A stretch of DNA of 64,000 bases from Pseudomonas sp. FP2335. GTDB taxonomy: Bacteria > Pseudomonadota > Gammaproteobacteria > Pseudomonadales > Pseudomonadaceae. Position 1 is the first letter of the stretch. Every line of letters starts with the position of its first letter. Both the position numbers and the translations under genes were made by a program. The DNA lies in NCBI RefSeq assembly GCF_030687535.1, contig NZ_CP117437.1:3617501-3681500 (forward strand), given 5' to 3'. The notes below the pieces were generated by a model. It was not told the DNA's origin. It searched no databases and saw only the letters and a program-made list of their open reading frames with translations. Of this stretch, positions 42,235 to 59,009 are shown in pieces.

Positions 42235-44505
42235 TCAGGCCATTTCAGCCGTGGTTTCGAACTCGAAGGTCAGCTCGCCATCCTTCAAGTCGATGTGCAC
42301 CACACCGCCATGGTCGGACAGTTCGCCGAACAGGATCTCTTCGGCCAACGGCCGTTTGATCTTGTCCTGGATCAGGCGCGCCATCGGGCGTGCGCCCATT
42401 GCCGCGTCGTAGCCACCTTCGGCCAGCCAACTGCGTGCCGCATCGGTCACTTCCAACTGCACGCGCTTGTCTTCCAACTGCGCCTGCAACTCGGTAAGGA
42501 ACTTGTCCACCACGCTTTTGATGACCTCGTGACTGAGGCGACCAAACTGGATAATGGTGTCCAGGCGGTTGCGGAACTCCGGCGTGAAGCTCTTCTTGAT
42601 CACTTCCATCGCATCGGAAGAGTGATCCTGATGGCTGAAGCCGATCGAAGCCCGCGCGGCCGTTTCAGCACCGGCGTTGGTGGTCATGATCACGATCACG
42701 TTGCGGAAATCCGCCTTGCGCCCGTTGTTGTCGGTCAGGGTCCCGTGGTCCATGACCTGCAACAGCAGGTTGAAGACTTCCGGGTGGGCCTTTTCGATTT
42801 CATCGAGCAGCAATACGCAATGCGGTTGTTTAGTGATCGCTTCGGTCAGCAGGCCGCCCTGATCGAACCCGACATAACCCGGAGGTGCACCGATCAAGCG
42901 CGACACGGTGTGACGCTCCATGTATTCGGACATGTCGAAACGCACCAGCTCGATCCCCATGGCCTTGGCCAACTGCCGCGCCGCTTCGGTCTTGCCGACG
43001 CCGGTAGGGCCGGCGAACAGGAACGAGCCAACCGGCTTGTCCGGCGACTTGAGGCCCGCACGGGACAACTTGATCGCCGTGGACAGCGCGTCAATGGCAG
43101 CATCCTGGCCAAACACAGTGAGCTTGAGGTCGCGCTCCAGGTTACGCAGCAGCTCCTTGTCGGAGCTGTTGACGTGCTTAGGCGGAATACGCGCGATTTT
43201 CGCGACGATGTCCTCAACCTGAGCCACATCAATGCGCTTCACACGCTTCTCGACCGGTTGCAGGCGCTGATAGGCACCCGCCTCGTCGATCACATCGATA
43301 GCCTTGTCCGGCATGTGCCGATCGTTGATGTAGCGCGACGCCAGTTCGGCCGCCGCACGCAGCGCCTCATCGGTGTATTCGATGCCGTGGTGCGCCTCGA
43401 AACGCCCCTTGAGCCCGCGCAGGATGCCAATGGTGTCTTCAACCGAAGGCTCGGACACGTCGACTTTCTGGAAGCGACGCGCCAGGGCGCGATCTTTTTC
43501 GAAGATGCCGCGGAATTCCTGGAAGGTGGTCGAGCCGATGCAACGGATATCACCCGAGGACAGCAGCGGCTTGAGCAGGTTGGAAGCATCCATCACGCCA
43601 CCCGACGCCGCACCGGCACCAATGATGGTGTGGATCTCATCGATGAACAGGATCGCTTGCGGGCGTTTTTTCAGTTCGCCGAGCAATGCCTTGAAACGCT
43701 TCTCGAAATCGCCACGGTACTTGGTCCCGGCGAGCAATGCGCCCAGGTCCAGGGAGTAAACGACGCTATTGGCCAGCAGGTCCGGCACCTGGTTATCGAC
43801 GATACGCTTGGCCAGGCCCTCGGCAATCGCGGTTTTACCCACGCCCGCCTCGCCCACCAGCAACGGATTGTTCTTGCGACGACGCGCGAGGATCTGCGCT
43901 ACGCGCTCGACTTCAAGCTCACGCCCCACCAGCGGATCGATCCGCCCCTGGCGCGCCAGTTCGTTGAGATTGCTGGCATAGGCATCCAGTGGATTGCCCG
44001 AAGAAGAAGACTCACCGCCCTCGTCGTCCTGCATATCCTGCTCACCCTCGGAATGATCGCCGTGCCCAGGCACCTTGGAGATACCGTGGGCGATGTAGTT
44101 GACGACATCAATACGGGCAACGCTCTGCTGCTTGAGCAGGAACACTGCCTGGCTTTCCTGTTCGCTGAAGATCGCCACAAGCACATTGGCGCCCGTGACC
44201 TCACGCTTACCGGAGCTCTGCACGTGGAAAACCGCACGCTGAAGCACCCGCTGGAAGCCCAGGGTCGGCTGGGTTTCACGGTCTTCATCGTGGACTGGAA
44301 TAAGTGGCGTTGTGGAGTCGATAAACTCCTGCAGGTCATGCTTGAGTTTGTCGAGGTTGGCGCCGCACGCACGCAAGACGGTGGCGGCAGCTTCGTTATC
44401 CAAAAGTGCCAGCAGCAGGTGTTCAACGGTCATGAATTCATGACGTTTCGAACGAGCCTCCTTGAAGGCAAGATTGAGGGTGACTTCGAGCTCGCGGTTT
44501 AACAT
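42235..44505 (-). CDS. clpA: ATP-dependent Clp protease ATP-binding subunit ClpA
   Basis: 756 residues, two AAA+ modules: Walker [14 protein letters not shown] (about 214) and [13 protein letters not shown] (about 495), Walker [13 protein letters not shown] and [13 protein letters not shown]. The N-domain (1-145) starts [14 protein letters not shown] and binds ClpS. The IGL-type ClpP loop occurs in the second module. It unfolds N-degron substrates for ClpP. It is translated behind clpS, with a 29-base gap. Confidence 0.97.
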
Positions 44506-44534
44506 AGCTTCACCTCATACCCAAGTGGTCGGCG

Positions 44535-44903
44535 TTAACCGTCCTTCTCGATTTCACAGAGTAGCGGATGCTGGCTTTCCCTGGCGTACTGGTTGACCTG
44601 CATGGCCTTTGTCTCGGCGATGTCGCGGGTAAACACTCCACATACTGCCCGTCCTTCTGTATGAACGGCCAGCATTACCTTGGTCGCCAACTCGCGGTTC
44701 AGGTTAAAAAACACCTCGAGCACTTCGACGACGAAATCCATCGGTGTGTAGTCATCATTGAACAAAACCACCTTGTACATCGGCGGCGCCTGTAGAGCAG
44801 GCTTGGCCTCCTGAACAGCAATGCCTGCAGAACCGTCGTCGTCATGTTCCTGATCCGGGCGATCCTGATTGAATGTTAGTCGAATCTGGCTGTTTGCATG
44901 CAT
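44535..44903 (-). CDS. clpS: ATP-dependent Clp protease adaptor ClpS
   Basis: 122 residues. [22 protein letters not shown] is the N-degron-binding pocket (Asn-Asp-Asp) and the later [20 protein letters not shown] carries the conserved His. It hands N-terminal Leu/Phe/Trp/Tyr substrates to ClpA. It is divergent from cspD (224 bases). Confidence 0.96.
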
Positions 44904-45127
44904 GGAAAGAAAGGTTCGTCAGTGGTTCAAATACAGTGGTGGGGGCGACCTGTCAGAATTTCAACTCTGACCGACTGGTCGCCTTGACTATCGGCAAATC
45001 GGTGTTACAACCAATAGAACCCACAGTGGGTAAAAAAGGTCCGCGCAGTCAACCTTATTTATTCGGGTTAGGACGGATAAACTGGATGATACTCCAGTGA
45101 TGGAGTCTGGTGCAGAGGGATATGGAG

Positions 45128-45394
45128 ATGGCAAGCGGTAAGGTCAAGTGGTTCAACAATGCCAAGGGATACGGCTTCGTCAACGAAGAGGGCAAGAGTG
45201 ACGATCTTTTTGCCCATTACTCAGCAATCACCATGGAAGGTTATAAAACGCTGAAAGCCGGCCAACCTGTGAGTTTTGACATAATTCAAGGACCTAAAGG
45301 GCTGCATGCCGTAAACATCTCTGCGGTTACGGCGGACACCCCTGCAAAACCTGCAACAACCACGGCTCACAAAGAAAAGAAATTAACGGCTTAA
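45128..45394 (+). CDS. cspD: Cold-shock-domain protein CspD
   Basis: 88 residues. RNP1 is KGYGFVNEEG and RNP2 is DLFAHYS; the Lys/Thr-rich tail is not conserved. CspD-type proteins bind single-stranded nucleic acid and inhibit replication in stationary phase. ATG 45128 is 7 bases after GAGGGA; ATG 45122 would be too close. It is divergent from clpS, as in P. aeruginosa. Confidence 0.95.
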   Translation: MASGKVKWFNNAKGYGFVNEEGKSDDLFAHYSAITMEGYKTLKAGQPVSFDIIQGPKGLHAVNISAVTADTPAKPATTTAHKEKKLTA

Positions 45395-45423
45395 CCGCCA
45401 CTGAGCCTGGGGGTTGCAGTAAA

Positions 45424-45462
45424 AAAAACGGCCATCCCACTCAAACCGGGATGGCCGTTTTT
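45424..45462. terminator. Bidirectional terminator between cspD and icd
   Basis: AAAAACGGCCATCCC and its complement GGGATGGCCGTTTTT around a 9-base loop, a 15-base-pair perfect stem between convergent genes. Confidence 0.92.
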
Positions 45463-45475
45463 GTGTGCCCGTCTT

Positions 45476-46732
45476 TTACATATGCGAAATCAACGCATCG
45501 CCAAAGCCCGACGACGACACCAACTTCGCCCCTTCCATCAAGCGCTCGAAATCATAGGTCACAGTCTTGGCCGAAATCGCACCATTGGTCCCCTTGATGA
45601 TCAGGTCTGCCGCTTCCGTCCAGCCCATGTGGCGCAACATCATTTCCGCCGACAGGATCAGCGACCCCGGGTTGACCTGATCCTTGCCCGCGTACTTGGG
45701 CGCGGTGCCGTGGGTGGCTTCGAACATCGCCACGGTATCGGACAGGTTGGCGCCCGGCGCAATACCGATACCGCCCACCTCTGCCGCCAGGGCGTCGGAC
45801 AAGTAATCGCCGTTCAGGTTAAGCGTGGCAATCACATCGTACTCAGCCGGGCGCAGCAGGATCTGCTGAAGCATGGCGTCAGCAATGGCATCTTTAACCA
45901 CGACATTCTTGCCAGTCTTTGGATTCTTGAACTGCATCCACGGGCCGCCATCGAGCAGCGTGGCACCAAACTCCTCAGCTGCCACTTCATAGGCCCACTC
46001 CTTGAAGGCCCCCTCGGTGAACTTCATGATGTTGCCTTTATGCACGATGGTCAGGGAGTCGCGGTCGTTATCCACGACATACTGAAGCGCTTTACGCGCC
46101 AGACGCTTGGTCCCCTCTTTGGACACCGGCTTCACACCGATCCCGCAATCCTGGTCGAAACGGATCTTGGTAACGCCCATTTCCTCCTTGAGGAACTTGA
46201 TGACCTTGATCGCTTCCGCAGACCCGGCCTTCCACTCGATACCGGCGTAAATGTCCTCGGAGTTCTCGCGGAAGATGGTCATGTCCACATCTCCCGGCTT
46301 CTTGACCGGGCTCGGCACGCCTTCGAACCAGCGCACCGGACGCAGGCACACATACAGGTCGAGCTGTTGGCGCAAGGCCACGTTCAGCGAACGGATGCCA
46401 CCGCCGACCGGCGTGGTCAACGGCCCCTTAATGGAAACCACGTAATCCTTGACCGCATCCAGGGTCTCCTGGGGCAGCCAGGTGTCCTGGTCGTAGACTT
46501 GAGTCGCCTTCTCGCCGGCATAAACCTCCATCCACGAGATCTTGCGCTTGCCGCCGTAGGCCTTTTCAACAGCTGCGTCGACCACCTTGATCATCACCGG
46601 GCTGATGTCGACGCCGATACCATCACCCTCGATAAAAGGGATGATCGGGTTATTAGGAACATTGAGAGAATGGTCTGCATTGACGGTGATTTTGTCGCCG
46701 ACGGCTGGAACCTGAATCTTCTTGTATCCCAT
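45476..46732 (-). CDS. icd: NADP isocitrate dehydrogenase (dimeric type)
   Basis: 418 residues. Its regulatory Ser is in [13 protein letters not shown] (the AceK phosphorylation site, as in E. coli), metal Asp residues are in [14 protein letters not shown], and NADP specificity is shown by [11 protein letters not shown]. It oxidises isocitrate to 2-oxoglutarate. ATG 46732 fits the family start [10 protein letters not shown]. It is divergent from the monomeric idh. Phosphorylation of this Ser would divert isocitrate to AceA (62.1 kb). No aceK is in the window. Confidence 0.97.
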
Positions 46733-49451
<2,719 letters not shown>

Positions 49452-49467
49452 GGTTGTGAGGTGACAT

Positions 49468-49498
49468 CACAAACCCCGGCCTGGTGCCGGGGTTTGTG
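49468..49498. terminator. idh terminator
   Basis: CACAAACCCCGGC-CTGGT-GCCGGGGTTTGTG, a perfect 13-base-pair stem followed by TTTT. It also faces the convergent LysR gene. Confidence 0.92.
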
Positions 49499-49520
49499 TT
49501 TTCAGCGAATTCAAGTTTAT

Positions 49521-50399
49521 TCACAGGGAAGCATTGACGTACTCTGAAGTCCAAACGGAGCGAATCAACTCAAGCACCTCACACCTGTAAACAGGATTCC
49601 AACCGTCCCGCTCTTTAGACACCACAGCAAATTGAGGCAGTACCGGCAAACTGGAAATGCCTTCAAGACTCCTTAAACCCGAAACCTGCGCGACAAAAGG
49701 CAGTAATGTAATGCCAACTCCTGCTTGCACTGCAGACCGCAGCGACATCAAGTCTTCCGACTCGTAAACGCAATGCCATTTTATACCGCACTCCTCTAGA
49801 CTCCGGATCGCTAGACTGCGAAACCCACAGGGTGGCTTGAACAAAGCGAGCGGGACATCGTGTGGCTTATCGACCACGTCAGCGCTATCGCCAGCAAACC
49901 ATCTGACCGATAATGTGTGCCAAGGACGCTCGTGCATCTTTTCCAGTTCATCTATCACAAGACATAGGTCGATCCTACCCTCACTTACCGCGTCCAATAG
50001 CAAACCAGACCTAGCGACCTTCACCACCATCTGTATGGTTGGAAAGTGAGTAGCCATGCTGGAAATAATCTTTGGGAGCACCCTCTCACAAAAATGCTCT
50101 GGCATACCCACTATGATCGTTTCTCTTCTTTCAACTCTCTCAAACAGCCTGCCAACTTTATCGTTACAAATGACTATATCTTTGGCATAACCCAAAAGCT
50201 TTTCTCCCTCCAATGTCAGCAATACCTGTCGATTTTCCCTTGCAAACAGCACCACACCCAATAAATCCTCTAACCTTTTAATCTGCTGACTGATAGCAGG
50301 CTGAGTCAAACTTAGAGCTTCAGCCGCTCGCGTAAAACTTTTGGTCTCACCTACTTTGATAAAGCTCCGCAACGACTGAACATCAAGATTGACTCTCAT
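49521..50399 (-). CDS. LysR-family transcriptional regulator (island)
   Basis: 292 residues. The N-terminal winged helix (about 5-63) reads FTRAAEALSLTQPAISQQIKRLEDLLGVVLFAR, and the co-inducer domain follows to the end. ATG 50399 follows AGGTGG; the open frame extends upstream but without a better start. Composition is clearly richer in AT than the neighbouring core genes. It lies 140 bases downstream of the flavoprotein gene, on the same strand, at the distal end of the cluster, so it may be co-transcribed or have its own promoter. Inducer unknown. Confidence 0.92.
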   Translation of the reverse strand: MRVNLDVQSLRSFIKVGETKSFTRAAEALSLTQPAISQQIKRLEDLLGVVLFARENRQVLLTLEGEKLLGYAKDIVICNDKVGRLFERVERRETIIVGMPEHFCERVLPKIISSMATHFPTIQMVVKVARSGLLLDAVSEGRIDLCLVIDELEKMHERPWHTLSVRWFAGDSADVVDKPHDVPLALFKPPCGFRSLAIRSLEECGIKWHCVYESEDLMSLRSAVQAGVGITLLPFVAQVSGLRSLEGISSLPVLPQFAVVSKERDGWNPVYRCEVLELIRSVWTSEYVNASL

Positions 50400-50539
50400 A
50401 ACACGCCACCTATCGAAATTAATATTCTGATTGTGGCAAATCAACACTTCATCCACCACTGACCATTCGGATAGGTAAGGGGCAAAATTACGTATGAAAA
50501 CATGCAACAAAATGTTTAATTAGAGATTTTCCTGTCATC

Positions 50540-52096
50540 CTAAGCTGATAGGCGAGCCTTAGAGGCATTAAAGTACATACCGGAGGTTAATGCCAACCTC
50601 GCCAAAACAGACTCTGCACGCATAGTCGAATGTCGAGCGTTGATTTCTAAAGCACTAGTAAAAAAGAACGCACCGCTTGTCAGCTCCCCCAAAACAGTGA
50701 TTCTGTCATCTACATGCCCCAGATGATTTATCAAACCACCCGTTTCAGTAGACACCTTCACTCCGCCAAATGGGTCGACGCACCCAATTCCTCGCTGGAG
50801 AATATTCTGCACCAAAGGGTTATCAAACTTACTCGCATCCCGAGGAGTACCCGTGGCCAGTACAACGGAGTCATAATTGTGGCAACTCTTAAGCGATCGA
50901 TTAACTACCTTTAAGCAAAACCGCTTATTGTATTCAATCGCCTCAAGCCCACCCTTTATAATTGATAGCTGCCCAGACTCGAGTAATGATCTAATTTTCA
51001 ATGCATTCTCCATCGGAATAGAAACACGGTAGGCCATCCACCAGCTTGAGTAACCCAGAAATATATGCTTATCCTCATCCGGCATTGCAGGCCAAATCAA
51101 ATCAAGTACAGCATTTGTCGAGTAGAGAACGGATTGCCAAAACCGAGGGTGTTGGGCAGCCGCTATTTCAGCCTCAAGAAATTCCGCTGCCGGTCTCTGG
51201 GAACACATTGCAGTCCAATCAGCCATGCCAATCCGCTTACCCTCCAAGGCCAATTCTTGCGTCATCCAACGAATAACGTCGTCAAGTCGGACTACGCCAG
51301 ATCGAGAAATACAAGACCTGACTGTTTCCGGCGTCAATATCGTGGGTTGATAGCGCCCCTGACTCCCCCTGACACTAGGCAGAGCTCCCGTGCGGGAATG
51401 CAATGTAATGGGCCCTTCATGGCCATTAGCAGTCAGCCCTATAACTGCATCGATCGCACTCAATCTTGAACCGACAATTGCAACACTCGCCTGCTTTTGA
51501 ATCAGCCGGCTTGTGCGCTTTATAGGATAAGGACTGGAGAAGAAACCCTGCGTACCCTCCAGGTGCTGGTATTCGAGACTGCGTGCATTACCACAACTCA
51601 AAACCACATGATCACTGGGGAACGATAGATTCCCTTTTGTTGAAACCACGACCCTTCCGTCATGGGAGAAGCTTATATTTACAACCTCGTCATGGACTGG
51701 AATCAATTGACAACCGAGCTCTACAGCTTTTTTGACTAGAGATTGAATCATGTGCGCAAGATATAACCCGAACAGGGGCCGAGGCAAAAATGCATGTGGG
51801 CACAGTTCAATGTCAGGGAAGTCATCTTCCCAAACCCCACGATTAGCCACCAACCATCCGTAAAAATGTCCAGGCTGATCAGGAAAAGGCGAAATAAATT
51901 CCGCTCGTGTATTTAAAATATTTGTGGAGCAGTCTTCCGAGTAGGCAAACCCTCGACCACATTGAGATTGTTTGTCCACCAAAAATATCGACACATCCGA
52001 ATGGCAGCCATATCGCCCTAAACCATTCAAAATCGCGTAGATAAAAGAGACACTTGAGGCTCCACCACCAATTATCGTGATTACGCTGCCAGACAT
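50540..52096 (-). CDS. FAD/NAD(P)-binding protein (PF13454-like flavoprotein), island
   Basis: 518 residues. The N-terminal Rossmann loop is ITIIGGGASSVSFIYAIL (GxGxxS). A second dinucleotide motif, VAIVGSRLSAIDAVIGL, lies near residue 206, and VVLATGTPRDASKF is the late FAD segment. The layout resembles the NAD_binding_9 family, which includes enzymes of unknown reaction as well as lysine/ornithine monooxygenase-like proteins. I cannot name a substrate. AT-rich. It follows the CoA-transferase gene by 65 bases (GGAGG precedes the ATG). The cluster context suggests oxidation or hydroxylation of a carboxylic acid or its CoA ester (inference). Confidence 0.85.
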   Translation of the reverse strand: MSGSVITIIGGGASSVSFIYAILNGLGRYGCHSDVSIFLVDKQSQCGRGFAYSEDCSTNILNTRAEFISPFPDQPGHFYGWLVANRGVWEDDFPDIELCPHAFLPRPLFGLYLAHMIQSLVKKAVELGCQLIPVHDEVVNISFSHDGRVVVSTKGNLSFPSDHVVLSCGNARSLEYQHLEGTQGFFSSPYPIKRTSRLIQKQASVAIVGSRLSAIDAVIGLTANGHEGPITLHSRTGALPSVRGSQGRYQPTILTPETVRSCISRSGVVRLDDVIRWMTQELALEGKRIGMADWTAMCSQRPAAEFLEAEIAAAQHPRFWQSVLYSTNAVLDLIWPAMPDEDKHIFLGYSSWWMAYRVSIPMENALKIRSLLESGQLSIIKGGLEAIEYNKRFCLKVVNRSLKSCHNYDSVVLATGTPRDASKFDNPLVQNILQRGIGCVDPFGGVKVSTETGGLINHLGHVDDRITVLGELTSGAFFFTSALEINARHSTMRAESVLARLALTSGMYFNASKARLSA

Positions 52097-52161
52097 AACA
52101 ACCTCCCACTATTTTTTCTGCATGAAACATGCTTATTTTTTAAAAGCTTCAAACAACATAC

Positions 52162-53685
52162 TTACAATACAAATATGTGCTCCGACATAGGCCTGCAGTT
52201 TCCAGACACGACAAAACCACCCTCTATGAATGGGATAATATCCTGCTCGATACTTATACCCGGAGCGATCTCCTCCAAATAGACCACTCCATTTTTCAGT
52301 GCAAAAACTGCACGCTCCGTAACAAAAATAACTCGTTGGCCCAACAATTGAGAATAGCCACCGTTAAATGTCAATTGCGAGACCTGGCGAACAAATTTAT
52401 TTACTCGACCTTCCCGAACTATATGAACCTCCCCTTCACTTACACTCACAACCAACCCTGCAGCTGTAAAAGTCCCACAAAATACAATGCATCGCGCCGA
52501 CTGTGAGATGTTTATGAAGCCACCCGCGCCTTGCAACTTACGACCAAACTGCGACACATTGACATTGCCAAAACTATCCATTTCGGCAAAACCCAAGCAC
52601 GCCACATCAATCCCACCACCTTCGTAAAAATCAAACAAAGCTGCCTGCTCAATGATACTAACCGGACGATAGCTAGCCCCAAATGACAATCCAGTTGCTG
52701 GCCGACCACCTATAACGCCGGATTCAACAGTAAAGTTCATCGACTCCGCACAACCTAACTCTTCAGCCACCTGAGCAACGACGACCGGTATACCAATACC
52801 AAGATTGATAATCCTCGCATTTTCACGTCGAATTTCCTGCAAAGCTCTTTTAGCAATAATTCTCTCCGCGCACGAAATCGGCCTCTCACTAGGCGTGAGA
52901 ACTCCCGGACGCGTAAATGCTGAATTACTTGCCACGCCATACGTTTGAGGATGTTCATGAGGGCGCGACACCGTCACATAATCCACCAACAACCCAGGCA
53001 CTATTACATGCTGCGGTTCAATATCGTGTAGTCCCACCAAACTTTCAACCTGCACAATCACTATTCCACCGGAGTTCTTGACTGCCATGGCCTGCGCAAG
53101 CACATCACTATTAGACACTTCCCGTTCAATCGAAATATTGCCCGAAGGATCACAAGATGTCCCTCTTAGTAACGCGCAATCCACCTTAAGTGCAGGATAA
53201 AATAGCGTCCACTCTCCATTAATAATAATTTTCTGAACCAGTGTGCCTGCGCCCCTGCTATTCAAGCACGCCCCCTCATAATCAGGATCAACGAAAGTGT
53301 TAAGGCCAACATTTGAGATCACACCAGGCTTCTTCGCCGCGATTGCACGGAATAGCTGGCTGATAACCCCCTGCGGCCAGTTATGCGCCTCTATCTCTCC
53401 TAAACGCGCCATATTTCCCAATCGCGGCACGAGTCCCCAGAACCCTCCAATTGCCTTGGCCACCAGCCCACTCTGGGCCAAAACGTCCACCCCCCTTTTG
53501 TCAAGATCTCCAGAGGCAGAAGTGAATAGCAAACCCAGCTCACGAGGCCGTCCCTCCCGCTTGAAACGCTCACTGATTGCTCGAGTAAGTCCATCAGGAT
53601 GCCCGCAACTTCCAAACCCTCCCGGAACGATTGTCCATCCGTCTTCAATCAATTCTGCCGCTTGCTGTTCGCTGATAACTTTCAT
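52162..53685 (-). CDS. Fused alpha/beta class I CoA-transferase (YdiF/propionate-CoA-transferase type), island
   Basis: 507 residues. The alpha half begins WTIVPGGFGSCGHPDGLTRAI. The beta half has the catalytic Glu in FTVESGVIGGRP and the oxyanion/CoA motif GAGGFINISQSARCIVFCGTFTAAG, both typical of single-chain acetate/propionate CoA-transferases. It moves CoA between short acyl groups. ATG 53685 overlaps the cupin stop (ATGA), so the two are coupled. AT-rich and without close core homologues nearby, it is part of the inserted cluster. Substrate unknown. Confidence 0.9.
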   Translation of the reverse strand: MKVISEQQAAELIEDGWTIVPGGFGSCGHPDGLTRAISERFKREGRPRELGLLFTSASGDLDKRGVDVLAQSGLVAKAIGGFWGLVPRLGNMARLGEIEAHNWPQGVISQLFRAIAAKKPGVISNVGLNTFVDPDYEGACLNSRGAGTLVQKIIINGEWTLFYPALKVDCALLRGTSCDPSGNISIEREVSNSDVLAQAMAVKNSGGIVIVQVESLVGLHDIEPQHVIVPGLLVDYVTVSRPHEHPQTYGVASNSAFTRPGVLTPSERPISCAERIIAKRALQEIRRENARIINLGIGIPVVVAQVAEELGCAESMNFTVESGVIGGRPATGLSFGASYRPVSIIEQAALFDFYEGGGIDVACLGFAEMDSFGNVNVSQFGRKLQGAGGFINISQSARCIVFCGTFTAAGLVVSVSEGEVHIVREGRVNKFVRQVSQLTFNGGYSQLLGQRVIFVTERAVFALKNGVVYLEEIAPGISIEQDIIPFIEGGFVVSGNCRPMSEHIFVL

Positions 53686-54113
53686 GCTGCGGCCTCGGAA
53701 TCCTGAGGTGGAGCGGGCTGAACGGGTTGCTCCCAAACGACTAGAAACGTACAACCCGTAGCAGAAGAAAGTTGGTGAGTAGAGCCCGGCGGGTAAATTT
53801 GCAGCGCACCTGCAGTATGTCGCCCCCTGTCATCGACTAGTTCACCATCGACCACCAACACTAATTCCCATCCCTGATGCCTGTGTCTCGGCGTTAAAGC
53901 TCCGACAGCATAACGGACCAATGCGGCAACTGGCCCTTGCGCATTATCCCGCGCATCATAAAGGTAAAATATTGAAATCCCTTTGCGCCCTTCCACTTCA
54001 TAAGGTTCAAAATTCAGATAATCAATATCGTCAACGTGCAGTCCACCTCCAGACCGGCAAATGTCATCGCTATATAATTTCTCATCAGCTATTTCGTGCT
54101 TAAACATTAGCAT
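53682..54113 (-). CDS. Cupin-domain protein, island
   Basis: 143 residues. Cupin motif 1 has the metal ligands in LTPRHRHQGWELVLVVDGEL (His-x-His-x-x-x-Glu-like), and motif 2 is LQIYPPGSTHQLSSATGCTFLVVW (His). The protein could be a dioxygenase, an isomerase or a ligand sensor. ATG 54113 or 54107 are both possible starts, with AGGAGAATGCTA ahead. It is coupled to the CoA-transferase and 32 bases from the transporter gene, so it belongs to the same transcript. Confidence 0.85.
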   Translation of the reverse strand: MLMFKHEIADEKLYSDDICRSGGGLHVDDIDYLNFEPYEVEGRKGISIFYLYDARDNAQGPVAALVRYAVGALTPRHRHQGWELVLVVDGELVDDRGRHTAGALQIYPPGSTHQLSSATGCTFLVVWEQPVQPAPPQDSEAAA

Positions 54114-54145
54114 TCTCCTGATAAGCAGCCTTCAATATTCGACGC

Positions 54146-55042
54146 TTACTTTGCTCTCGAATGATTCATCAAATAAACTCCCACCCCCGACACAATGAAA
54201 CCTACAATCACCACCACACTCGGTACTTCACCCAACATCAACGACGCCATGATCTGAGTGACAGCCGGAATAACATGAAACAAGTTAGTCGCCTTACTCG
54301 CCTCCCCCCGCCGAATCATCAGGTAAAGCAGGGTCAGCGCGCCGACCGAGTTCATTACAGTGATCCACGCCACAGAGGCAGCGAAGGGCCCCCACTGCGT
54401 CACCTGCATGGTCTCGGTGGCATAGGCCAGCAGCAACATGACCAGCGACGCGGTGACCATCTGAACAAAACAGCCCACCCACAGGTTGACGCCGCCGAGA
54501 AAACGCTTCTGATAAAGCGTGCCAAGGGTGATGCCTAGCAGCGCCAGCCCTACCGCGCCATAACCGCCGATTGACGCCTCGGTACCAAAAAAACTGCTGC
54601 CTACCACAATAGCCACGCCGCCTACGCCCAGGATCGAGCCTGGCAAGTCGCGCCAACTCAATTGCTCGCCTAAACAGAAATAGGCGCCTATCACCACAAA
54701 TACCGGCATCAGCCCAACAATCAGCGCAGCTTGCCCAGCCGGGACGCCCTGACTTATCCCGGTGTAGAGGCCGCCAAACTGCAGAGCCTGCAAGAGCAAC
54801 CCCACGGCAGCCGCGTGAAGGTAGGGTGTAAGCCGCCTAGGCCACTCGGCCTTGATCGCGAGCGCCACGCCCAGGAAAACCAAGGCAGCCAGGGCAAATC
54901 GGTAGAACGTCATGGTGAAGGGCTCGCCATAGCGCACACCGAACGCACCACCGATATAACCGGAACTCCACAACAGGATGAAGGCAATCGGCAACGGCGA
55001 TGTAAGGCGCACTTCGTAGCTTTTGTGGGCAATCGGATTCAT
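54146..55042 (-). CDS. EamA/DMT-family transporter, first gene of the island strand
   Basis: 298 residues with ten membrane helices in two EamA repeats (LPIAFILLWSSGYIGGAFG, and the second half starting IGGYGAVGLALLGITLGTLYQKRF). DMT transporters export amino acids, metabolites or drugs. ATG 55042 (GGAGAAATCTC upstream) fits the family; the longer open frame does not. Its composition is closer to the Pseudomonas core than that of the following four genes. It may have been present before the insertion, or it may serve as the cluster's exporter. Confidence 0.88.
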   Translation of the reverse strand: MNPIAHKSYEVRLTSPLPIAFILLWSSGYIGGAFGVRYGEPFTMTFYRFALAALVFLGVALAIKAEWPRRLTPYLHAAAVGLLLQALQFGGLYTGISQGVPAGQAALIVGLMPVFVVIGAYFCLGEQLSWRDLPGSILGVGGVAIVVGSSFFGTEASIGGYGAVGLALLGITLGTLYQKRFLGGVNLWVGCFVQMVTASLVMLLLAYATETMQVTQWGPFAASVAWITVMNSVGALTLLYLMIRRGEASKATNLFHVIPAVTQIMASLMLGEVPSVVVIVGFIVSGVGVYLMNHSRAK

Positions 55043-55262
55043 GAGATTTCTCCAGTGAAGGTTCTGGAGAGGTAAACTGCGCCGCTGGCACATCGGGGTA
55101 AAATCATAAAATGTCGGGCGTGTCATGCAGATTGCTTATGCCCCCCCTGAGGAAACCCGATCCACATGCGGGAGCGGCGGTGCGCCGATCGCACTTGCCC
55201 ACTCCCACATTGACTACGATCCTGCCGGTAGACCGCGTCGCACATTCAAATCGAGGCATTCC

Positions 55263-55709
55263 ATGACCTGGCAACCCCACATCACCGTCGCCACCATCGT
55301 CGAAGACAACGGCCGCTTTCTTATGGTCGAAGAACTCAAAAACGGCCGCGCCGTGCTCAACCAACCCGCCGGCCATCTCGACCCGCACGAAACCCTCACC
55401 GAAGCCGCTGTGCGCGAAACCCTCGAAGAAACCGGGTGGGACGTCGAAGCCACCGGCATCGTCGGCATCTACCTGTACACCGCGCCGAGCAACGGCGTGA
55501 CCTATCAGCGGGTTTGCTTCATCGCCAAGGCACTCAAACACCACCCCGACTACCCACTCGACGAAGGCATCCTGCGTGCCCGCTGGCTGAGCCGTGAGGA
55601 ACTGCTGGCCGTGCGTGACGACTGGCGCAGCGAGCTGATCATCCGCTGTATTGATGATTATCTGGCCGGCCAGCATCACAGTCTCGAATTGATCCGCCCT
55701 TCTCTTTAG
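55263..55709 (+). CDS. nudJ: NUDIX hydrolase (NudJ-like phosphatase)
   Basis: 148 residues. The Nudix box is GHLDPHETLTEAAVRETLEETGW near 41-63 (Gly, Glu and the REUxEE set present). It hydrolyses nucleoside di/triphosphates or thiamine pyrophosphate-like substrates. ATG 55263 gives the usual length. It stands before mnmA, as in other pseudomonads, with 59 bases between. Confidence 0.9.
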   Translation: MTWQPHITVATIVEDNGRFLMVEELKNGRAVLNQPAGHLDPHETLTEAAVRETLEETGWDVEATGIVGIYLYTAPSNGVTYQRVCFIAKALKHHPDYPLDEGILRARWLSREELLAVRDDWRSELIIRCIDDYLAGQHHSLELIRPSL

Positions 55710-55768
55710 CCTTGAAGGCCCGAGCCTGATAGAATCGCGTCCTTTTTCAAGACACCCGTTGAAACCCT

Positions 55769-56893
55769 ATGCGTGATCCAGCCCCTTCTGACACACAAAA
55801 GAAGCGCGTCATCGTCGGCATGTCCGGCGGCGTGGATTCTTCCGTTTCCGCCGTTCTGCTCATGGAGCAGGGTTATGAGGTGGAAGGCCTGTTCATGAAG
55901 AACTGGGAAGAAGACGATGGAACGGAATATTGCACCGCCATGGACGACCTGGCGGACGCCCAGGCCGTGTGCGACAAGATCGGCATCAAGCTGCACACCG
56001 CCAACTTCGCCGCCGAGTACTGGGACAACGTGTTCGAGCACTTCCTGGCCGAATACAAGGCCGGTCGCACGCCGAACCCGGACATCCTGTGCAACCGCGA
56101 AATCAAGTTCAAGGCGTTCCTCGACTACGCCATGATGCTTGGCGCCGACCTGATTGCCACTGGCCACTACGTGCGCCGCCGCGATGTCGACGGCCGCACC
56201 GAACTGCTCAAGGGCCTGGACCCAAACAAGGACCAGAGCTACTTCCTGCACGCCGTCGGCGGCGAACAGATCGCCAAGACCCTGTTCCCGGTGGGTGAGC
56301 TGGAAAAGCCCGAAGTGCGCAAGATCGCCGAGCAACACGGCCTGGCCACCGCCAAGAAGAAGGATTCCACCGGGATCTGCTTTATCGGCGAGCGCCGCTT
56401 CAGCGACTTCCTCAAGCAATACCTGCCAGCACAACCTGGCGAAATCAAAACCACCGACGGTGAAGTGATCGGCCGCCACCACGGCCTGATGTACCACACC
56501 ATCGGCCAGCGCCAGGGCCTGGGCATCGGCGGCCTGAAAGACGCCGGCGAAGAGCCGTGGTACGTGCTGATCAAAGACCTGGAGCACAACGAGCTGATCG
56601 TGGGCCAGGGCAATGAACATCCATTGCTGTTCTCCGGCGCCCTGCTCGCTTCGGAAATCTACTGGGTCAACCCGATCGACCTGAGCACCCCACGCCGCCT
56701 GACCGCCAAAGTGCGCTATCGCCAGAGCGACCAGGCATGCACCCTGGAAAAAACCGCTACAGGCTACCGCGCAACCTTCGATGACCCACAGCGTGCGGTC
56801 ACTCCGGGCCAATCCGTGGTGTTCTATGACGGCGAAATCTGCCTGGGCGGCGGCGTGATTGAAATCGCCGAAGCCTGGAGCCAAAAGGCATGA
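55769..56893 (+). CDS. mnmA: tRNA 2-thiouridylase MnmA
   Basis: 374 residues. The PP-loop is [15 protein letters not shown] near 18-32. The catalytic Cys pair lies in [11 protein letters not shown] and [12 protein letters not shown]. It 2-thiolates the wobble U of Lys, Glu and Gln tRNAs, taking sulfur from TusE (encoded at 29.7 kb). Full length, overlapping hflD by 4 bases. Confidence 0.97.
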
Positions 56894-57513
56894 GCCCGAC
56901 CCAGGAGCAATTGACGGCACTGGGCGGGGTTTTCCTCGCCGCTGTATTGGTGGACAAGATCGCCAAGACCGGCCAGGTCACCGAGGCCGGCCTGACCTGC
57001 ATGCTCGGCAGCCTGCTGATCCGCGACCCCAAGGACACCCTGGAAGTCTACGGTGGCGACGACCTGGCACTGCGCGAAGGTTATCGCGCGCTGATCGGCG
57101 CCCTGGAACGCGACCCCAGCACCCTGCAGCGCGAACCGTTGCGCTACGCCCTGTCGATGCTCGGGCTGGAGCGTCAACTGGCCAAGCGCGAGGATATGCT
57201 GGAGATCATCGGCAAGCGCCTGCCGCAAATACAGTCCCAGGTGGAACACTTCGGCCCCGCCCACGAAAACGTGATCGCGGCCTGTGGTGCGCTGTACCAG
57301 GACACCTTGAGCACCTTGCGCCAGCGGATCCAGGTGCACGGCGACATGCGCAACCTGCAACAACCGAACAACGCCTCGAAAATCCGCGCCCTGCTCCTGG
57401 CCGGTATTCGTTCGGCGCGGCTGTGGCGCCAGTTGGGCGGTCATCGTTGGCAGTTGGTCATCAGCCGTCGCAAATTGCTCAAAGAGCTTTACCCGTTGAT
57501 GCGCAACGAATAA
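56890..57513 (+). CDS. hflD: HflD (YcfC) membrane-associated protein
   Basis: 207 residues, all-helical. [24 protein letters not shown] and [37 protein letters not shown] signature pieces are present. HflD affects lambda lysogenisation through CII in E. coli, and its host role is unclear. It starts inside the mnmA stop, a conserved mnmA-hflD-purB order. Confidence 0.92.

Positions 57514-57551: not shown

Positions 57552-59009
<1,458 letters not shown>

Follow-up and report, generated by a model that had tools for sequence, protein, structure and literature searches.

The window analysed here, a stretch of 64,000 nucleotides from Pseudomonas sp. FP2335, carries on its minus strand a five-gene island built around adjacent genes for a cupin, a fused coenzyme A (CoA) transferase and a flavoprotein resembling the flavin N-hydroxylase FzmM. 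This trio is a real conserved cassette whose architecture is well supported: the order cupin, CoA-transferase, flavoprotein on one strand recurs at 14 loci, the window included, in alpha-, beta- and gammaproteobacteria (the latter two in NCBI's sense). The best reading of the cassette is a horizontally moved, self-contained unit with its own transporter and regulator. In order of transcription the island comprises:

54146-55042, minus strand: membrane transporter of the EamA/drug-metabolite transporter (DMT) family, 298 amino acids, PF00892 (E 7e-30), first gene of the island
53682-54113, minus strand: cupin (Cupin_7, ChrR-like, single domain), 143 amino acids, metal-site pattern H77, H79, E83, H113
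52162-53685, minus strand: fused (alpha+beta) CoA-transferase of the YdiF/propionate type, 507 amino acids, PF01144, Glu321
50540-52096, minus strand: NAD_binding_9 flavoprotein with FzmM-like flavin N-hydroxylase fold, flavin adenine dinucleotide (FAD)/nicotinamide adenine dinucleotide phosphate (NADPH), 518 amino acids, PF13454 (E 9e-31)
49521-50399, minus strand: LysR-type regulator, 292 amino acids from ATG (329 in the longer open reading frame if started at TTG), PF00126 and PF03466, last gene

The trio loci divide equally into two types. In the seven type A loci the EamA gene stands before the cupin gene; these are the window, L004 (P. rhodesiae, apparently G004), L005 (P. haemolytica), L072 (G032), L070 (G236), L006 (a metagenome-assembled genome (MAG) of Oxalobacteraceae) and L105 (G986, from the family of the Halomonas locus). 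The seven type B loci, L008 (Aeromonas bivalvium), L009 (Halomonas), L010 (Xenorhabdus koppenhoeferi), L071 (G076), L090 (a Thioclava plasmid), L104 (G927) and L102 (G790, its flavoprotein listed under Pseudoduganella plicata), encode a membrane protein of the HPP family instead, together with a TetR regulator. A small tautomerase-like protein is encoded in six of them, the four run against Pfam giving sub-threshold tautomerase matches, and none was seen at L102; L008 and L010 additionally encode a class V aminotransferase. Regulators differ even within type A. In the window the LysR gene follows the flavoprotein gene in the same orientation; at that place L105 has a LysR gene (31.6% identical) on the opposite strand, and L070 and L006 carry a different LysR (26-28%) before EamA. 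The original prediction placed the trio under a LysR regulator and with a DMT exporter; LysR lies outside the conserved core, as regulators of other kinds occur at other loci.

Some copies (L072, L105 and L090) have transposase genes within or beside them, which would be compatible with chance co-travel of genes with separate roles on mobile DNA. We regard this as very improbable. The same order is kept at 14 loci despite trio proteins being only about 30-55% identical between groups, the cupin and CoA-transferase genes overlap by four bases in the window, the CoA-transferases belong to one clade, and the co-occurrence counts already make chance unlikely. Among 298 Pseudomonas genomes, the CoA-transferase was matched in 31 (E <= 1e-40) and the flavoprotein in 42 (E <= 1e-20). 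Flavoprotein and cupin were present at the five top-scoring of the 30 Pseudomonas CoA-transferase loci that were read, and neither was found within the 1.5 kb flanks of the remaining 25. In a tree of 43 CoA-transferases, all 14 trio members form one clade (100/100) together with a single outsider, L007, and 28 Pseudomonas relatives stand apart; this exclusiveness holds against an outgroup of Pseudomonas relatives only, as plasmid relatives (45-50% identity) were left out except for the Thioclava trio copy. The outsider comes from an Alteromonadales MAG in which the trio-clade CoA-transferase (L007) and a flavoprotein relative (L101) are located on separate contigs, with other neighbours and no trio, the sole exception to linkage that we saw. 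Scattered genes without co-occurrence are rejected by these data, and the trio stands as the conserved neighbourhood originally proposed. The cassette is rare. A class-wide sample of 321 genomes yielded one flavoprotein match at E <= 1e-50, the window's own, and the families of other loci gave 1 of 61 (Aeromonas locus, itself), 3 of 215 (Oxalobacteraceae, itself included) and 3 of 151 (Halomonas, itself included).

Comparison with relatives, in which the site is empty, shows the five-gene island of the window to be an insertion. Of 119 sampled Pseudomonas genomes, 118 had a NudJ match, and 30 of these loci were read. In 25 of them idh is the upstream neighbour of nudJ within the flank, 24 having a gap of at most about 245 bases and one, L129, a gap of 752; three contain the island between the two genes (the window, G032 and G004), and two, L120 and L121, were not judgeable, L121 being at a contig end. 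Alignment of nine empty sites with the window places the left break at 49501-49513, just past the idh terminator; on the right, homology returns between 55147 and 55252, varying with the empty site compared. The resulting extent is:

49502-55146, no strand assigned: insertion from the idh terminator to the stretch before nudJ, from comparison with nine empty sites, right edge uncertain by about 100 bases

By the right edge, window 55147-55215 resembles, by its motif, a degenerate palindrome of the repetitive extragenic palindromic (REP) kind; the empty sites of relatives appear to have longer ones.

The G+C content at third codon positions (GC3) is 0.41-0.50 in the cupin, CoA-transferase, flavoprotein and LysR genes and 0.689 in EamA. 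Elsewhere in the window it averages 0.711 (standard deviation 0.102; lowest value 0.42, in one reading frame) over 37 long non-overlapping open reading frames, chosen by length and possibly including some that are not genes; seven named neighbouring genes have values of 0.75-0.83. With its near-normal composition EamA might be taken for an old chromosomal resident, an idea we rejected because it is absent at the empty sites and precedes the cupin in distant loci. EamA had no match at any of the 25 empty sites, so all five genes were gained or lost together here. Its synonymous divergence (dS) to P. haemolytica (0.275) is below that of the CoA-transferase, flavoprotein and LysR genes (0.55-0.69), and together with the near host-like composition this looks as if EamA had a different history inside the island. 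Ratios of nonsynonymous to synonymous divergence (dN/dS) of 0.05-0.22 in 12 gene comparisons of the window with L004, L005 and L072 reveal purifying selection among close copies and show that the island proteins matter in these carriers.

The five genes likely form an operon. In transcription order they are separated by 32 bases, the four-base overlap of cupin and CoA-transferase, 65 bases and, between flavoprotein and LysR, 140 bases. A consensus scan for promoter- and terminator-like sites in the island gave 8 against 6.5 and 8 against 6.6 in shuffles, no clear excess. The original prediction had described most of this layout from the sequence alone: its five codirectional genes were confirmed by open reading frames and Pfam, the spacings it gave are exact, the AT-richness of four of the five genes is borne out by GC3, and the NudJ loci support an acquired insert between idh and nudJ.

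The flavoprotein, whose predicted model has a predicted local distance difference test score (pLDDT) of 89, is likely to oxidise an amino nitrogen. The best structural match is FzmM (8cp2/8cp5), aligned over 485 residues at 18% identity, and hhalign (99.2%) gives profile homology over 467 columns. As in FzmM and CreE, the nitrosuccinate-forming aspartate N-hydroxylases, the model has a helical substrate domain set between two dinucleotide-binding domains, a catalytic-site Asn over flavin C4a and an aromatic residue stacking on the isoalloxazine. The latter two, N62 and Y52, are invariant in 31 flavoprotein sequences and align with FzmM Asn62 and Trp51. Being closest to a flavin N-hydroxylase, the protein points to nitrogen oxidation and not to generic carboxylic-acid handling. 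The small-carboxylic-acid pathway originally envisaged was too vague and missed the FzmM likeness. In contrast to FzmM and CreE, the trio flavoprotein is partnered by a CoA-transferase and a cupin. PRK09897 (E. coli YdhS) shares the N-terminal NAD_binding_9 region, but the flavoprotein reaches only 42.5 bits against a cut-off of 783, with a match confined to residues 6-222.

Relatives of the flavoprotein occur in other settings. A second NAD_binding_9-like protein is encoded in the same genome outside the window (G000:C1:3715762-3717081; 30% identity over the N-terminal part and 24% over a C-terminal part), and matches of comparable strength exist in other Pseudomonas. Four loci from other Pseudomonas genomes, L073-L076, share a different conserved cluster, in which a sister flavoprotein (37-38% identical) is accompanied by an aminotransferase, an ATP-grasp ligase, an AbrB-family membrane protein and an HMGL-like aldolase with DmpG domain; the maps of L073-L075, but not that of L076, also show an acylating acetaldehyde dehydrogenase and a 276-amino-acid protein lacking any Pfam match. 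This looks like an uncharacterised natural-product cluster, and no known product was found for it in the literature. In a flavoprotein tree (32 rows, 31 of them different, the two interrupted copies left out) these sister proteins fall beside the Thioclava trio flavoprotein. On a Photobacterium plasmid (L091), a relative (35%) is encoded behind an ATP-grasp-like protein and a major facilitator superfamily transporter, without CoA-transferase or cupin.

The CoA-transferase aligns with E. coli YdiF (2ahu) over residues 3-506 (E 3e-113). It has the fused subunits of YdiF and the propionate CoA-transferases (Pct, FadX-like), and the motif Glu-Ser-Gly is found at the Glu321 place in all 14 trio members; we take Glu321 to occupy the position of the catalytic Glu. 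In contrast to these known enzymes, the trio proteins form a clade separate from the 28 Pseudomonas relatives, and at 319 bits the window's enzyme is below the cut-off of the FadX equivalog (750). The cupin shares the Cupin_7 fold and the HxH...H metal-site pattern with Dke1-type acetylacetone dioxygenases and ChrR cupins, and by sequence its single barrel would qualify as a metal cupin of this group. The predicted ligands H77, H79 and H113 are present in 14 of 14 trio loci and Glu83 in 13. A fold search was nearly tied among dioxygenases, lyases and others and did not decide the reaction.

From these assignments we infer a chemistry, to which we give a probability of roughly 0.4: the cassette N-oxidises an amino acid, activates an acid with CoA, transforms it by means of the metal cupin and exports the product. 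With FAD, NADPH and O2, the flavoprotein would oxidise a small amino acid at its amino group, giving a hydroxylamino, oxime, nitroso or nitro acid. The YdiF-type enzyme would turn the carboxylate of this product, or of its carbon partner, into a CoA thioester, which the cupin might then isomerise, oxidise or eliminate. EamA would export the product, the HPP protein doing so in type B, and LysR would switch on the operon in response to substrate or product. Nitrite transport by an HPP-family protein has been reported, according to citing passages in PMC7438415 and PMC4137279, and nitrite or another nitrogen-oxidised product is thus a candidate for the exported compound. CoA activation and the metal cupin may replace an FzmL-type lyase. 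FzmM-FzmL and CreE-CreD are described as enzyme-lyase pairs in PMC7347517. Likewise, a lyase-family gene directly followed the FzmM relative in all five Streptomyces plasmid loci opened (among the matches listed, 10 of 60), whereas the trio loci have none in the stretches searched.

Several observations weigh against this proposal. No FzmL-type lyase (adenylosuccinate-lyase/carboxymuconate-cycloisomerase family) was detected in window 44000-57500 or in 13 trio loci of 12.5-19.5 kb by tblastn with five lyase queries (E <= 1e-3), a search in which both control loci matched; the housekeeping adenylosuccinate lyase gene purB (57639-59009) falls outside the searched part of the window. The Asp-binding Arg13 of FzmM is Ser14 in the flavoprotein. 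Of the other entry-chamber residues, Arg276 aligns with Arg248, which is common though not invariant, and Asn413, Arg416 and Arg577, like the Arg409/412/416 cluster, gave no reliable alignment. Fold scores of the reductase YpdA (25.3) and of small flavin monooxygenases (24.0-24.3) are about level with PvdA, SidA being lower (21.7), and hence the fold does not fix the reaction. Trio flavoproteins do not form one group in their tree (5 changes). In two of the 14 trio loci, transposase genes (L072:6332-7309 and L105:6831-7658; DDE_Tnp_1 and an rve integrase core) split the flavoprotein gene, which is then dispensable there and not always needed. A strict aspartate N-hydroxylase is doubtful given the loss of Arg13.

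A catabolic module appears somewhat unlikely. Here a small oxo- or beta-dicarbonyl acid would enter through the transporter, with the cupin serving as a Dke1-like dioxygenase and the flavoprotein as a monooxygenase of the carbon or Baeyer-Villiger type, and the CoA-transferase would pass a fragment on to central metabolism. The flavoprotein is clearly nearest to an N-hydroxylase, and the first Baeyer-Villiger enzyme has only rank 49 in Foldseek; EamA proteins are mostly exporters; and the annotated neighbours of the trio in the locus maps include no recurring catabolic gene, though an aldehyde dehydrogenase is encoded some 2 kb past HPP in L102. Still less likely is a stress or detoxification module, where the flavoprotein would be an NADPH-dependent reductase or oxidase, a harmful acyl-CoA or acid would be removed by the CoA-transferase, and the ChrR-like cupin would sense or quench a reactive compound: YpdA aligns over 316 residues as opposed to 485 for FzmM, and the single-domain cupin has no other kind of Pfam domain in its 143 amino acids. 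A defence system was discarded, the three enzymes sent to PADLOC giving no match, as was a phage origin, with PHROGs matches to transporter and regulator only, in families of unknown function.

N-oxidation could also take a more specific, lyase-free course, although we consider this version improbable. The flavoprotein would form a nitro acid, for example from a beta-amino acid, and the CoA-transferase a nitroacyl-CoA with an acidic alpha-hydrogen; the cupin would remove nitrite, and HPP, from a family with a reported nitrite transporter, or EamA would export nitrite or the nitro acid. The tautomerase and class V aminotransferase of type B would serve to interconvert the carbon skeleton and restore its amino group. 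Cupins such as the dimethylsulfoniopropionate lyase DddK perform beta-elimination.

As originally supposed, the pathway is apparently undescribed. Its genes form a mobile cassette that combines known enzyme families around an N-hydroxylase-like flavoprotein. No paper on the cassette or on accession PF13454 was found in the portions of the open-licence literature consulted, where papers on neighbouring topics concerned other subjects. The ham-type diazeniumdiolate cluster (fragin, valdiazen), as described in PMC5878181, is likewise small and pairs an N-oxygenase with the cupin HamB and the aminotransferase HamG, but its N-oxygenase is of the AurF type and it uses a nonribosomal peptide synthetase-like protein; neither of these is encoded among the five island genes. 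If our proposal is true, Pseudomonas, Aeromonas, Halomonas, Xenorhabdus and other proteobacterial carriers possess a compact pathway to a small N-oxidised acid that belongs to none of the known FzmM/CreE, siderophore or diazeniumdiolate systems, and a role could be assigned to this group of PF13454 proteins. The two cassette types, which surround one enzyme core with different transporters and regulators, provide a natural experiment for finding the product.

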